Positions 38,941-44,247 of a DNA stretch of 64,000 nt are shown here, in pieces. The notes below the pieces were generated by a model. The model saw only the letters and a list, made by a program, of their open reading frames with translations. It did no database searches and was not told the DNA's origin. The DNA is from Archangium lansingense. GTDB taxonomy: Bacteria > Myxococcota > Myxococcia > Myxococcales > Myxococcaceae. Position 1 is the stretch's first letter, and each line of letters opens with the position of its first letter. A program made the translations under genes and the position numbers. The stretch is from NCBI RefSeq assembly GCF_026626635.1, contig NZ_JAPNKA010000001.1:12012501-12076500 (forward strand), written 5' to 3'.

Positions 38941-39383
38941 GGCTTCCTCGTGGCAAGCTTGTTGAGCCTGGAGCCAGGAGTGCATACGTCGCCCGCGATC
39001 TCATCCAGTGCATCCACGAGCCTGCCCCTGCATTCAGCCTGGGACTGGCAATTCTTGAGTGCGTCCTCGAGCCGCCGATAGACCTCCTGGTGGTACTCCT
39101 CGGGGTGGGGCCCCACGTGCCCGACGAGATAGATGATGTTCGCCGGGTCATCGAGGCTCATCCCCACCTTGTCGAAGAGCTTCTTGAATCGAGGTGTCCA
39201 GGGACCGCCACGGACATCGGCCTTGTCGTTCTTGTCGGTAGCGAGGTGATGGCCTTTCGCATCGCCCTTATCCGATGCACTCCGGCAGGCTCCTGTTGTC
39301 CGTGCCGAAGAGACCGCCGAGGAGGCTGCCTGGACTGTCGTTCCGGCCGCCGCCCCCATGAGCACCACCGTGCCGTTCGCCAC
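38937..39383 (-). CDS. AHH-domain nuclease toxin, C-terminal part (frame-shifted from its N-terminus)
   Basis: 148 residues from a GTG at 39383. The nuclease signature is GHHLATDKND with the HH pair, then KLFDKVGMSLDDPANIIYL and HPEEYHQEVYRRLEDAL, as in the AHH group of HNH/EndoVII toxins. It lacks a signal peptide. In the same frame the sequence stays open upstream to about 39461 and reads PPRGFFIGAGARAEVAVANG, a conserved join to the preceding frame. It is therefore the tail of the gene starting at 40317, displaced by one base. Whether it is translated separately is unknown. Confidence 0.8.
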   Translation of the reverse strand: MANGTVVLMGAAAGTTVQAASSAVSSARTTGACRSASDKGDAKGHHLATDKNDKADVRGGPWTPRFKKLFDKVGMSLDDPANIIYLVGHVGPHPEEYHQEVYRRLEDALKNCQSQAECRGRLVDALDEIAGDVCTPGSRLNKLATRKP

Positions 39384-40317
39384 GGCTACCTCGGCACGGG
39401 CCCCTGCCCCAATGAAGAAACCTCTCGGTGGGCTGCCTCCCGCGAAAGCATGGCGAGGGGGGCGAGAGTTTCTCCCACAGACCTCCCCTGGGCACCTCCG
39501 GGAGATTCCTGGACAGCTTCGCCCCTGCCACTGTCAGCAACACCCGCAGACCCACTCCACCTATCACCTGACCAAAGCGCTCGGCTGCCGCCTCCAACTG
39601 GGCCTGGGTCCTCGCGGCTTCTGCTTCACGATACAGGTTCAGGCATGCCAATCCCACATTGAAGAGCTCCGCCGCGGTGTAGGTCATCAACAGACCGAGA
39701 GTGACCGCCGCCGCCAATGCCTTTGAAAGCACTGGCTCGGGTGCTGCCCACGCAATCATATACAGCATCATGGACATCCCCACGGACAGCAGAACAGCGG
39801 GGGAGCTGAACATCTCCATGGCCGCCTCACGAACACCCGCGCCCATGTAACGTGGCGAGAGCGCGAGCGCCTGGAACCACCGGGCATCCTCCAGGGAAGC
39901 TGGCAATGGAATCGAGGAGGGCCCATAAAGCGCACCGTATTGCTGGCGCACCAGTCTCTCCAGGTCCGAGGACCTGGCAGTCGTCGATAGCATGAGTCCG
40001 GTACCTGCAGCAGGCATGCCCATGGGGCGCTTCGCCAACGGAGGAGAACCAGCTCTCGATTTCACCACCTTGAATTCCTCTTCCAGCGCCACCACGATGG
40101 CTCGCGCGTCATCGGGCGTGAATCGGGCCAATGATGGATCCGGCCGAAGCGGCTTGAAGGTGAGTTTGAGACCACGACCCTGCGCTGGGTCGTGGTACTC
40201 GCTCAGACTCACGGGTTCCAGAAATCGGAGCCGGGACTCGACCTCGGAAGGAACGGCTCGGGCCGGGAAAGAAACCAGCAACAGGAGACATAGAGCGGGG
40301 GCGATGTACGGATGCAT
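39268..40317 (-). pseudogene. AHH polymorphic toxin, N-terminal part with frameshift
   Basis: 349 residues from ATG 40317 (AGGAG seven bases upstream). A signal peptide (about 1-21, no lipobox Cys) is followed by an Ala/Arg-rich region and hydrophobic segments at 173-192 and 199-226. The authentic frame ends near residue 286 (LWEKLSP); the rest is Arg/Gly-rich nonsense. Removing one base from the six-G run at 39457-39462 (C in the gene sense) joins it in frame to the AHH tail, giving about 459 residues. This could be a true mutation, a phase-variable tract or a sequencing error. Confidence 0.8.
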
Positions 40318-40381
40318 GACTGGCTCCTCTTGCCCGCTCGGAGTGGCCAAGGGGCCTGCGCCGATGAATACCCACCACGTG

Positions 40382-41090
40382 TCAATCGAATGCCCGGTCC
40401 GTCAGTTCGATGAACAGTGGATGCTCTCGTAGAAAATGGAACTGCGGGAGCACCTTCGCCTCCGCGCTGGTGCCAGGTGCAGCCTTGATTGCCTGTGCGA
40501 GCAACTCGAGCGCGAGGTCGTGCTCGCCCTCGACCGCGTGCAGTGCGGACTTCGGCAGCAGCCTGGGTGAGCGAGCAACAAGCTGCCTCGTCTTGTCTCG
40601 GAACTCTTCGGTGATGCCCGCCTCATCACCTCCTATTACGTTATGGATTGCCCAAAGCGCCAAGAGCCCCATCTCACGATCCGGGTCAATCCTGACCACG
40701 GCACTGAAGTCCTCTCGGGCCGCCCGAAAATCCTTGGACGCATAGCGAAGGCAAGCCCGCACATAAAAGGCAAGACATTCATTAGAAGAGTCCACGGAGA
40801 GCGAACGTGAGCACATCGCTTCGGACTGGTCACACTCGCTTCTCCACAGAAGCAGCCGGGCATACAGTGCCAGGGACCGAGCATCGGTTTCGGCCAACAT
40901 GCGAGCCTTCATCAAAGAAGCCTCCGCATCCCTGAAAAGCCCGAGCCATAGCTGTGTATCCCCCAGGGCGCCATGGTAGTCTGCGTTCTTGGGCTCTAGT
41001 TGTGCTGCTATTTGGCAGTGCTCAAGCGCCTTACCAAACTGATTAAGCCAGCGGAAAGTGGTTCCCAACTCGCGATGATTGCTCGCGTCC
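40382..41090 (-). pseudogene. C-terminal TPR portion of interrupted STAND ATPase
   Basis: About 235 codons in the same frame as the STAND gene but cut off from it by stop codons inside a small element at 41095-41204. It encodes TPR-like repeats (SNHRELGTTFRWLNQFGKALEH; PKNADYHGALGDTQLWLG). The nearest start is at 41068. Deleting the element and one copy of CTAG restores AVELDPRDASNHREL without a stop and puts neighbouring TPR units exactly 34 codons apart. Confidence 0.85.
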
Positions 41091-41208
41091 CTAGGAGCCT
41101 GTCGGAATACCTCGGCTACCCACTACATGAGGGGTAGTGCGACTCAAACACACCGCTATGGTTGGTATGTAGGAGTCGTTTTTCGGCGATTCTCCGACAA
41201 GCTCCTAG
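41091..41208. mobile_element. MITE-like element with CTAG target duplication
   Basis: A 110-bp element (41095-41204) flanked by CTAG on both sides (41091-41094 and 41205-41208; CCTAGG if the outer bases are counted). Its ends are near-perfect inverted repeats: GAGCCTGTCGGA at the left, and GAGCTTGTCGGA read from the other end. It has no coding capacity, and an internal CTACCC/GGGTAG pair can form a hairpin. The insertion adds 114 bases (38 codons), keeping frame but bringing in three stops. A 4-bp CTAG duplication suits mobilisation by an IS1182- or IS5-like transposase, but the parent is not in the window. Confidence 0.85.
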
Positions 41209-43273
41209 GGTCCAACTCCACCGCCTTCAAGAAGTGCTCCAGCGCCTTGCCATGCCTCCTGAGCCAATTATAAGTGACTCCCAACTCGCGATGATTGCTC
41301 TCGTCCTGCTGACACGAGATACCCAACGCCTCATCGGACAGCCTTCGGCGCAGAGGCGTCTCCAGATCAGGTGGACACCAGTTGATTGCTTTCACGATAC
41401 GATCCAGGGCTTCACTCAACCGCCCCGAATATCTTAGACCTTGCGCCTCCATCCAGAGCTTGATCGCTGAGCGCTCGCCCGCATGTGCGTCGCCCTGATC
41501 CTCCTCGGGCAACCAGCGCCGTTCCAGATCCTTCTCCAACAGCATCATCAGGCGCAGGCGAGCGCCTGTATCCCAGACATGCTGCCCTTCACGAAGCATG
41601 TTCAGGCGCTTGCGGCTTCGGTCATCCAGGACACCACGCCACGATTCACCCATTTCCAGAACCGCGTCCCTGAGGGCCTGGCTGTACGAAATTCCTTCCA
41701 GGAATCGCAACGTGAGCAACCGGCACGCCTCATCTTCCTGAATCCAGAAGAGGTAATTGATGAGCTTTCGGCTTGCCTCGATGTAGTTCTTGTCGGCCGC
41801 CAGTTCGTGCAGCCGGGTATGGTAGGCGCAAGGCTTCTGCATCACCTTGCGACAGTGCTCGGAGGCTCGCTGAGCATACGTGCGGACCCACTCCTCAGTG
41901 CGCCAGGCTCCACGCAAGTGCTCGATATAGAACCGGGCCGGCTCATCATGGAGCCGTGGCGAGCTGCTCGACTGGCGTTGCACGGCCGAGTATCGCTCGC
42001 GGACGCGCTGGATATATGCCTCATAAGCGCACTTCCTGACGTCGCATTCCGGAACGAGCATGGCCTTGAGAATTTCGGTATCGCCTTCGGCCATGGCGAT
42101 CGCGGCCAGAGCATGCCGGTCGTACTCATCCACGCAGTGGAGCTCGTAGCGAGCGATCATCCGACTCAGGAGGTCTTCATTGGTGAGCCCATCTTCATTG
42201 TGGATGTGATGAATGTCGCCGGTATCGTTCCAGATCGCGGCGGCGAGCCGGATGGCCAGCGGAATGGCGCGGGTGGAACGATTGACGGCATTCAACTGCT
42301 CGTCGTCGAGCACCGGACGTCCCGGAGCCGCCTGGCGGAAGTACTCGCGAATGTCCGGGCGCGCGAGTGCGTGGAGATCGATCGGGCGGATGTGATAGGA
42401 ATGATCCTCTTCTTCGCGATAGCCAACTTCGCGCGTCCCCGAGCGAAGCTCATAGGTCTCGTACAAGTCGCGCCGCCCGACGATGACCCATGCCACGCGA
42501 GGGCCCGCTGCCTTGATGACCTCGCGAAGGAATGGGTCCACGACATCGACGATCTCGTAGGTGTCGAGCGCCACCAGGATTGGCCAGTCGGCAGCAGCCA
42601 CACGCAGGTCCTTGCCCAGTGCTTGAGCCAGGTGCCTTGGCCCCGCCGTGAGCAGGGTTTCATCGATATTGGGGAGGCGTAACTTGTTCTGTGCCAGCAG
42701 GTTCTTGAGCGCCTGCATCCCGAACCGGGTCGCACTCTTCCAGATTCCCAATCCCGGATCGCCCGTGACGGCGGTGATGGCCAGATCCTTGACCAGATCC
42801 TCGGCTGGTTTGAACAGGTCTCCGGGTTGGGTTGCACGAGGTGGAGCCTCGCTCCGTTTCCTGGCCTCCTCGAACACCCCCCACGCATGCTCGATCCGCT
42901 CCCGCATCTTCACGAAAGCGCCCTTCTTGAACACCGCGGCCAGGCCAAGTCTTTCGCCTGCGGCATCGAGAAGAATCCGGAGCACCTGCTCTATGTCGAG
43001 GTCTTCCGTACGAACGTTGAGGACACCGTGGTTGTGAGTTCTCTGTTCTTCCCAGTCGACTCGCAGAGTCCGGAAGCGCCCCGCATACTCATTCTCCACG
43101 AGACGGAGGAACTCACGCAGGAGCGCCGATTTACCGATACCGCCCTGTCCCCAGATGAGCGCGACATGTGGCAGGGCATTGTCGGGTGTCAAGAAGCCCG
43201 ACATCATCTTGCGCAGATCCTTGAGCTGCCGGTCGCGGCCCAGGAAGATGTCTTTCTGAGTCTCAGGGAGCAT
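41156..43273 (-). CDS. STAND-type NTPase (NB-ARC/NACHT-like), truncated by MITE
   Basis: 705 residues from ATG 43273, ending at a TAG inside the inserted element. Walker A GQGGIGKS is at 42-49 (VALIWGQGGIGKSALL), a Walker-B-like ILVALDTYEI follows, and VAWVIVGRRDLYETYELR resembles the sensor-1/RNBS-B region. The C-terminal part is alpha-helical with TPR repeats. The uninterrupted protein would be about 925 residues. STAND proteins act as signal-activated switches, often in anti-phage defence, but no effector domain is recognised. The start is uncertain; the frame is open to 43429. Confidence 0.8.
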   Translation of the reverse strand: MLPETQKDIFLGRDRQLKDLRKMMSGFLTPDNALPHVALIWGQGGIGKSALLREFLRLVENEYAGRFRTLRVDWEEQRTHNHGVLNVRTEDLDIEQVLRILLDAAGERLGLAAVFKKGAFVKMRERIEHAWGVFEEARKRSEAPPRATQPGDLFKPAEDLVKDLAITAVTGDPGLGIWKSATRFGMQALKNLLAQNKLRLPNIDETLLTAGPRHLAQALGKDLRVAAADWPILVALDTYEIVDVVDPFLREVIKAAGPRVAWVIVGRRDLYETYELRSGTREVGYREEEDHSYHIRPIDLHALARPDIREYFRQAAPGRPVLDDEQLNAVNRSTRAIPLAIRLAAAIWNDTGDIHHIHNEDGLTNEDLLSRMIARYELHCVDEYDRHALAAIAMAEGDTEILKAMLVPECDVRKCAYEAYIQRVRERYSAVQRQSSSSPRLHDEPARFYIEHLRGAWRTEEWVRTYAQRASEHCRKVMQKPCAYHTRLHELAADKNYIEASRKLINYLFWIQEDEACRLLTLRFLEGISYSQALRDAVLEMGESWRGVLDDRSRKRLNMLREGQHVWDTGARLRLMMLLEKDLERRWLPEEDQGDAHAGERSAIKLWMEAQGLRYSGRLSEALDRIVKAINWCPPDLETPLRRRLSDEALGISCQQDESNHRELGVTYNWLRRHGKALEHFLKAVELDPRSLSENRRKTTPTYQP

Positions 43274-43467: not shown

Positions 43468-44247
43468 TCAGTTGCAGCCCTGGCTCGCCAGCCAGTTCAC
43501 GCCCGTGGTCCGCTGGGTCGTGCCGTTCGAGCCGCCGTAGTCCACGTTCGAGAAGGACAAGGTCACGGTGGCGCCCGAGGACTGGTTCCTGAGCTCCATC
43601 GTCAGGTTGTTGGGGACGAGCGCGGTGGAGTTCGGGTAGTTCGCACCGATGTAGTAGCGAATCCGGCCGCTCGGCAGGCTCCCGCACGTGGCCATCTTGT
43701 TCTCGAGCTGCAGCCAGTTGCCGCGGTTGAAGTTGGCATCCTGCGGCACCAGGTTCGCCCGGCCACCCCAGCCCCCGAGCTGCGAGCCGATCATGTGCCC
43801 ACCGTCATAGTCGTTGCTGGGGTTCTCCGCGTCGCCCCACTGCCCCACGTTCAACTGACAGGAGTCGATGCGCGCCGCGGCGGAGATCGGCGGCAGGTAC
43901 TTGTACGCCCGGCTCGGCCGGCCCGAGCCGTCGATGAGGTAGTACTCGCCGTCGAAGTTGTGCCAGATGTTCCGGTCGCCCGTCGGGAAGTACTTCGGAC
44001 AGTCGCTGATCGCCTCCTCGGTGACCCGACCGCGGACGACGTACCCGATGCCGTAGGGCTTCAGCGCCTCCCGGATCTCCTCCTCCGTGTGGCTCTGGAA
44101 GAACTCCATGAGCCCGTTCGGACCACCAAAGTCCTGCTCCATCTGACTGGCAACGCCTTCGCCCCCCAGGTCCAGCTCCGTGGCTCCGCAACCGCCGAGC
44201 ACCAGGCCAAACACCGCCGCGACAGACAGCTTGTTCAGAGTGCGCAT
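43468..44247 (-). CDS. DNA/RNA non-specific endonuclease, lipoprotein
   Basis: A 259-residue secreted nuclease. The lipobox is LGGC (Cys20). The beta-beta-alpha-metal core reads DYDGGHMIGSQLGG (catalytic His151), ANLVPQDANFNRGNW (metal Asn) and LENK, matching the Endonuclea_NS_2 family. Localisation at the envelope suggests degradation of extracellular DNA or prey nucleic acids. It is preceded by an AT-rich region and followed by 194 bases with no gene. Confidence 0.87.
   Translation of the reverse strand: MRTLNKLSVAAVFGLVLGGCGATELDLGGEGVASQMEQDFGGPNGLMEFFQSHTEEEIREALKPYGIGYVVRGRVTEEAISDCPKYFPTGDRNIWHNFDGEYYLIDGSGRPSRAYKYLPPISAAARIDSCQLNVGQWGDAENPSNDYDGGHMIGSQLGGWGGRANLVPQDANFNRGNWLQLENKMATCGSLPSGRIRYYIGANYPNSTALVPNNLTMELRNQSSGATVTLSFSNVDYGGSNGTTQRTTGVNWLASQGCN

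Follow-up and report, generated by a model that had tools for sequence, protein, structure and literature searches.

A probable IS1182-type MITE, recently multiplied, interrupts a STAND-like AAA_16/TPR gene in Archangium lansingense

Introduction

In the window, the whole stretch of 64,000 nucleotides of Archangium lansingense that was analysed, a gene on the minus strand is interrupted by a short segment at 41091-41208. The locus raises the question of what this segment is, how it came to its place and what became of the gene. An earlier note, made from the letters of the window, had described a 110-bp miniature inverted-repeat transposable element (MITE) flanked by a CTAG duplication, which splits a STAND/TPR gene. 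According to the sequence comparisons reported here, the 110-bp element is with a probability of roughly 0.94 an IS1182-type MITE, which recently multiplied, inserted into CTAG and truncated a STAND-like AAA_16/TPR gene.

Results

The segment is composed of CTAG, 110 bp and CTAG (118 bp in total). The element itself (41095..41204, assigned to the minus strand, which is that of the interrupted gene) starts with GAGCCTGTCGGA and finishes with the reverse complement of GAGCTTGTCGGA. These 12-bp terminal inverted repeats (41095..41106 on the plus strand and 41193..41204 on the minus strand) match each other in inverted orientation at 11 of the 12 terminal bases and form the outer stem in predicted folds. 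The two copies of the CTAG target are located at 41091..41094 and 41205..41208. The only open frame in the 118-bp unit has 39 codons and a transposase gene is absent, which is in line with the inverted ends and the non-coding nature ascribed to the element by the earlier note; plus-strand frame 0 of the element is free of stops. The predicted DNA fold of the element strand is 4.5 standard deviations more stable than shuffled sequences and the RNA fold 5.8 or 7.5, depending on the strand, an extra stability expected from the inverted ends. A consensus scan of 41000-41300 revealed neither a promoter-like nor a terminator-like site, and the element was rejected as carrier of either.

The genome of A. 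lansingense (13.83 Mb, two contigs) harbors 24 copies of the element, 23 of which are identical over 118 of 118 bp, while one has three changes. All 24 are flanked by CTAG at both ends. Their right flanks are all distinct and 23 distinct left flanks were found; the only one that occurs twice (at L008 and L016) consists in both cases of the right end of one and the same type of insertion sequence. Since there are zero differences among 23 copies, the element is, judged by these sequences, the product of a very recent burst, in which it multiplied to 24 chromosomal sites. The earlier note had proposed a search for other copies and had named, as an outcome speaking against it, the same 110 bp at this position in all relatives and no copies elsewhere. 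Instead, 23 further copies and three empty sites were found.

To look for empty sites, ten one-sided flanking sequences taken from the 24 sites were used as queries, and those of five loci gave hits (18 matches). For L001, L013, L019, L020 and L022 there were no matches, or no usable ones of their own. The comparison took in 16 of the 18 matched loci, covering five sites, and gave clean empty orthologous sites with one CTAG and no element in congeners at three of them (L006/L092, L014/L096 and L017/L103). In the more distant L105 and L106, both sides of L006 align, CGAG replaces CTAG and the element is absent. The remaining comparisons were partial. For L010, only the right flank aligned with L091, L093 offered for the left flank just 22 matching bases at another place, and the flanks were about 490 bases apart, without CTAG, in L094. 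For L021, the right flank alone aligned in all five matched loci. L014 and L108 aligned over part of one flank, L017 and L102 over one flank, and L100 matched both flanks of L017, but not the site itself. A further line of evidence is the copy at L015, which sits within a repeat of the form GGGAGAGGG-CTAG-GGTGAGGG, of which the same genome contains 32 unfilled copies with one CTAG each. The single CTAG at the three empty sites and in the 32 unfilled repeats indicates that CTAG is duplicated on insertion, as the earlier note had proposed for the 110-bp MITE.

The target is scarce, with 12 CTAG in the window versus 188.5 expected from base composition and approximately 3,300 in the genome (extrapolated from 168 kb). 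TTAA is found 5 times in the window, with 41.3 expected. The extragenic palindrome-like repeat GGGAGAGGGCTAGGGTGAGGG, present at 32 exact places in the genome (0 for a control pattern), supplies many of the rare CTAG targets.

The N-terminal piece of the interrupted gene (41209..43273, minus strand) contains Pfam AAA_16 and TPR domains, and the C-terminal piece severed by the element (40382..41090, minus strand) contains TPR_1, TPR_2 and TPR_19, in agreement with the claim that a STAND/TPR gene is split. The insertion led to a net gain of 114 bases (3 x 38), which leaves the reading frame unshifted, so that the gene is broken by stops only. Read through the element, the frame of the gene continues as ...TYQP* and meets the stops TAG, TGA and TAG that the earlier note had named. 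The 21-mer CCCAACTCGCGATGATTGCTC was found at 41064..41084 (3' of the break) and at 41280..41300 (5' of the break); the copies are 216 bases apart, or 102 after subtraction of 114, which bears out the spacing given in that note. When the element and one CTAG are taken out, the frame is open over 977 codons from GTG 43429 or 925 codons from ATG 43273. The database protein for this locus (P0001) comprises 705 residues; the join lies after residue 689, and the last 16 residues are encoded by the element together with the CTAG copy.

Among the 7998 candidates with most shared words, an intact homolog of 961 residues (P0002) was found, which shares 71% identity with the N-terminal ORF across 93% of that ORF and whose C-terminal part aligns with the C-terminal piece. 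The joined protein and P0002 are 69% identical over 951 columns, with 28 gap columns. At the join, both read LDP, eight residues and LG, in the same register. Intact homologs lacking the join residues, which were named beforehand as evidence against the proposal, were not seen, and P0002 supports an intact protein of about 925 residues, the predicted length that removal of the element had been claimed to restore. No match to the STAND gene was obtained at E <= 0.001 in any of 58 other genomes searched for an uninterrupted allele; the gene therefore looks accessory. None of the PADLOC defence models matched either piece at E <= 0.01, and its assignment to a known defence system was rejected at this threshold. 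The insertion has probably abolished the function of the gene. Two neighboring ORFs on the minus strand were noted, one at 39268-40350 with a partial match to SitA5_escort (69 bits, cut-off 160) and one upstream of the STAND gene at 43468-44247, which by eye resembles a secreted DNA/RNA endonuclease.

A scan for the ends of the element led to two full-length types of insertion sequence (IS), each located between CTAG repeats, from which their target duplication was read, while the empty sites were checked for element copies. IS-A (1729 bp including CTAGs) is present in three copies and IS-B (1714 bp including CTAGs) in four copies identical at 1714 of 1714 positions; both types are intact in the genome. 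Their ends read CTAG-GAGC(T/G)TGTCGG(A/C), and those of the element differ from them by one or two bases. With the IS1182 model NF033551 (cut-off 270), the IS-A transposase reached 356 bits; it contains the domains DUF772 and DDE_Tnp_1. The transposases of IS-A and IS-B share 90% identity, and the genome contains five more partial matches. A transposase with the same ends, which the earlier note had suggested looking for, is thus encoded in the same genome and belongs to the IS1182 family. Altogether, the element is short, lacks a transposase gene, carries terminal inverted repeats and a target duplication, is dispersed in copies and shares its ends and target with an autonomous partner, all of which are features of MITEs.

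The stretch common to the element and these ISs is confined to the 15-22 terminal bases; with IS-A, 15 of the first 16 positions are the same, CTAG included. Beyond the ends, the interior matched none of the eight ISs compared, and its derivation from one of them was rejected. The element did therefore not arise simply by loss of the inner part of a known IS copy. At two unrelated sites with different outer flanks (L051, C1:4773540-4775367, and L053, C1:7583066-7584893), IS-B and the element lie in tandem with one common CTAG, the element being placed directly behind the right end of IS-B. The chance of at least two of the 24 copies lying at any of 14 IS ends was calculated to be approximately 0.005, given an estimated 3,300 CTAG sites and no bias towards IS ends. 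These tandems suggest that IS-B and the element may move together, or that one may attract the other; they may have been transferred as a unit, or the element may have inserted twice next to IS-B. Empty sites of the two tandems were sought as well, and no match crossed a boundary.

Pfam searches covered ten pieces of genes at eight of the 24 sites, and hits were obtained for five pieces from five sites. The element is located inside a polysaccharide deacetylase gene (L006) and a DinB gene (L014). The piece at L021 is the last part of a LysR-type gene, and a protein-kinase gene starts just past the element at L019. At L007 (element at 1501-1618) it interrupts a gene whose first part, with the pieces examined separately, matches the Cap4 nuclease domain. 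The copy at L022 (C1:934754-934871) is in frame and open, and encodes 38 residues within an ORF of 821 residues (L088:781-3246). Exactly those 38 are missing from a homolog of this ORF (P0029), which begins 72 residues further on and agrees with it at 709 of its 711 residues. The P0029 gene comes from a 13,506,606-base contig that is distinct from both contigs of the genome studied here, so that P0029 is probably carried by another close assembly.

With a covariance model built from 12 copies and applied with strict filters, under which weak matches may be lost, the element was detected in 14 of 96 genomes of the bacterial family (that of A. lansingense included) and in 4 of 26 genera. Relatives of the transposase at E <= 1e-100 were found in 11 of the 96, and both occur together in nine genomes (hypergeometric 8e-8, uncorrected for kinship); in both searches, a limited number of candidates was scored per genome. 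Five of the 14 genomes with the element had no transposase relative at this threshold (G001, G032, G033, G111 and G130), and in two of the 11 with the IS no element was found (G002 and G123). An exact-pattern scan of contigs, in a collection that may omit genomes near that of the window, gave one record, a Myxococcaceae MAG with the same element as the G111 copy.

A second subfamily is characterized by TGTTG...GTAA ends and a mostly different interior; seven of its eight sequences are 117 bp long. IS ends were read in G000 and six more genomes (8 of 12 IS loci) and not found at L112, L117, L122 and L123. In five of the six genomes in which both could be read, IS and element have ends of the same type: G027 and G040 have TGTTG...GTAA ISs together with elements of that end type, and G000, G003 and G052 have TGTCGG-type ISs together with TGTCGG elements. 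G047 is the mismatch, its IS being of the TGTCG type and its element of the TGTTG type, and G123 has a readable IS and no element. One end of an element in G027 (L083) reads TGTCG, and G040 additionally carries a TGTCGG-type element without a matching IS, its transposase relatives being only 43-44% identical.

The interior is conserved in two blocks. In the alignment, columns 37-62 and 84-94 have mean pairwise identities of 0.89 and 0.93, compared to 0.88-0.89 for the ends and 0.64-0.74 for the linkers. Base pairing between these blocks is possible, and the block near the end is recognizable in the second subfamily: over its first 40 bases, a first-type copy is 82% identical to an element of G027. 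Covariation supports the pairing weakly. One compensatory inner pair was observed in the second subfamily (eight sequences), whereas the inner stems of the first subfamily had none; of 500 shuffles, 67 and 38 reached the covariation scores. A short history aside, the conservation of the interior is the one feature lacking an ordinary explanation. It might be a module selected for mobility (e.g. as a cruciform or a second contact of the transposase) or for persistence in the host and carried between the ends of different IS lineages, which we regard as a speculative and rather unlikely idea. In G033, a weak match to the model (L084, G033:C13:229620-229747, E 3e-4 for one genome) is located between CTAG repeats; its ends differ (CAGGCTGCTGAAAAAGT), yet the block CGACCCACTAC is found inside. 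L084 is possibly the same interior with the ends of another IS type.

Discussion

In the proposed mechanism, a DDE transposase encoded by either IS-A or IS-B, the two intact ISs of the IS1182 family in this genome, would recognize the 16-20 bp ends of the element, excise or copy it in trans, and insert it into the rare palindrome CTAG, which would be duplicated. Mobilization in trans by an IS transposase is the probable route, as judged from ends and target, with the tandems of IS and element as indirect evidence. The likeliest source of this transposase would be IS-B, with its four identical copies, rather than IS-A. The insertion at 41091-41208 would have put stop codons between two TPR units of the STAND-like gene, with a truncated product of 705 residues replacing one of about 925.

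A different, unseen transposase could move the element, its resemblance to IS1182 ends being coincidental. Such a view would fit the fact that only the 15-22 terminal bases are common with the ISs of the genome and that the interior is unrelated to them. However, the agreement with IS-A at 15 of the first 16 positions goes together with the same CTAG target and the same 4-bp duplication, the end types agree in five of six genomes, element and transposase co-occur in nine genomes, and IS and element form tandems, so that a coincidence is very improbable. The conserved columns 37-62 and 84-94, which resemble the ends in their conservation and can pair, might also be taken to indicate a structured RNA gene or a regulatory cassette, repeated by chance and not a transposon remnant. 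Against this reading, no Rfam family was found in the window copy, and a match in one relative is at chance level (E 0.27, 15 bits with a cut-off of 97), by which a known RNA family was rejected. Moreover, the stretch around the element is devoid of promoter- and terminator-like sites, and the CTAG duplication together with the empty sites demonstrates insertion; of the alternatives weighed here, this one is the least probable.

The net length of 114 bases and the open frame could have been selected for insertion of 38 residues into genes, as in the protein-adding palindromic elements of Rickettsia. The L022 copy, which adds exactly 38 in-frame residues that P0029 lacks, and the stop-free plus-strand frame 0 agree with such a function. 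At least one open frame was, however, also present in 1379 of 2000 shuffled interiors, and the comparison of the element with seven relatives revealed no bias in codon position (e.g. 6, 6 and 6), with most altered codons changing the residue in six of the seven comparisons. Furthermore, of the nine members of the family whose net length is a multiple of three, five carry a stop in that frame, and the window copy itself brings stops. A coding role of this kind is largely refuted by the codon-position counts and the shuffles, with no conserved peptide in the family, and it is considered highly unlikely. The preferred reading is still an IS1182-type MITE.

The family is a new one of IS1182 type in myxobacteria, and its mechanism is ordinary; what stands out is the recent burst, the well-matched partner IS and the conserved interior. 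With 23 identical copies, known empty sites, a partner IS in identical copies and a near-identical homolog lacking one copy, the set represents a clean natural experiment. It permits a direct test of which IS moves the element, and the impact of a MITE burst on genes can be measured on the STAND-like truncation, the interrupted Cap4-nuclease gene and the 38-residue in-frame addition. For annotation it is a warning, as the 705-residue protein recorded at the STAND locus is truncated and its final residues stem from the transposon.

In the REP/RAYT system, the partner is a single-strand transposase (RAYT) and no target is duplicated; the CTAG duplication argues against membership of the element in this system. 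RMX is the name of an old Myxococcus repeat, and no title on RMX was found among the matches listed in a literature search. In a search for MITEs with myxobacteria or IS1182, titles and abstract openings among the matches listed, mostly from non-subscription journals, contained no such family. Like the Rickettsia palindromic elements and other in-frame MITE fusions, one of the 24 copies adds residues in frame; unlike the palindromic elements, the family shows neither a conserved peptide nor a codon-position bias. Fusions of this type have already been described (excerpts of PMC10969869 and PMC5896051). The bacterial MITEs Correia, ERIC, QMITE and Chunjie are short and non-coding, with inverted ends, target duplication and many copies, some of them in genes (excerpt of PMC10969869), and the element resembles them in all these traits. 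QMITE and Chunjie copies vary in size and sequence according to the same excerpt, whereas 23 of 24 copies are identical here. Most bacterial MITEs target TA, as stated in the available part of PMC5896051, and the present element targets CTAG.

A close likeness also exists to the ISs of the IS1182 family, which have similar ends and a 4-bp duplicated target, the element differing from them by the missing transposase and by an interior unmatched in the eight ISs. Some members of the family target palindromic sequences, as the available text of PMC5678879 reports with reference to other work. IS1272, which is placed in the IS1182 family there, is reported to replace a stem-loop target without duplication; here, by contrast, CTAG is duplicated and nothing was lost at the three empty sites. 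ISPse1, an IS1182-family member trapped in Paracoccus (1653 bp; excerpt of PMC3281130), is listed with 16/16 inverted repeats and a 4-bp duplication, which resembles the situation described here.
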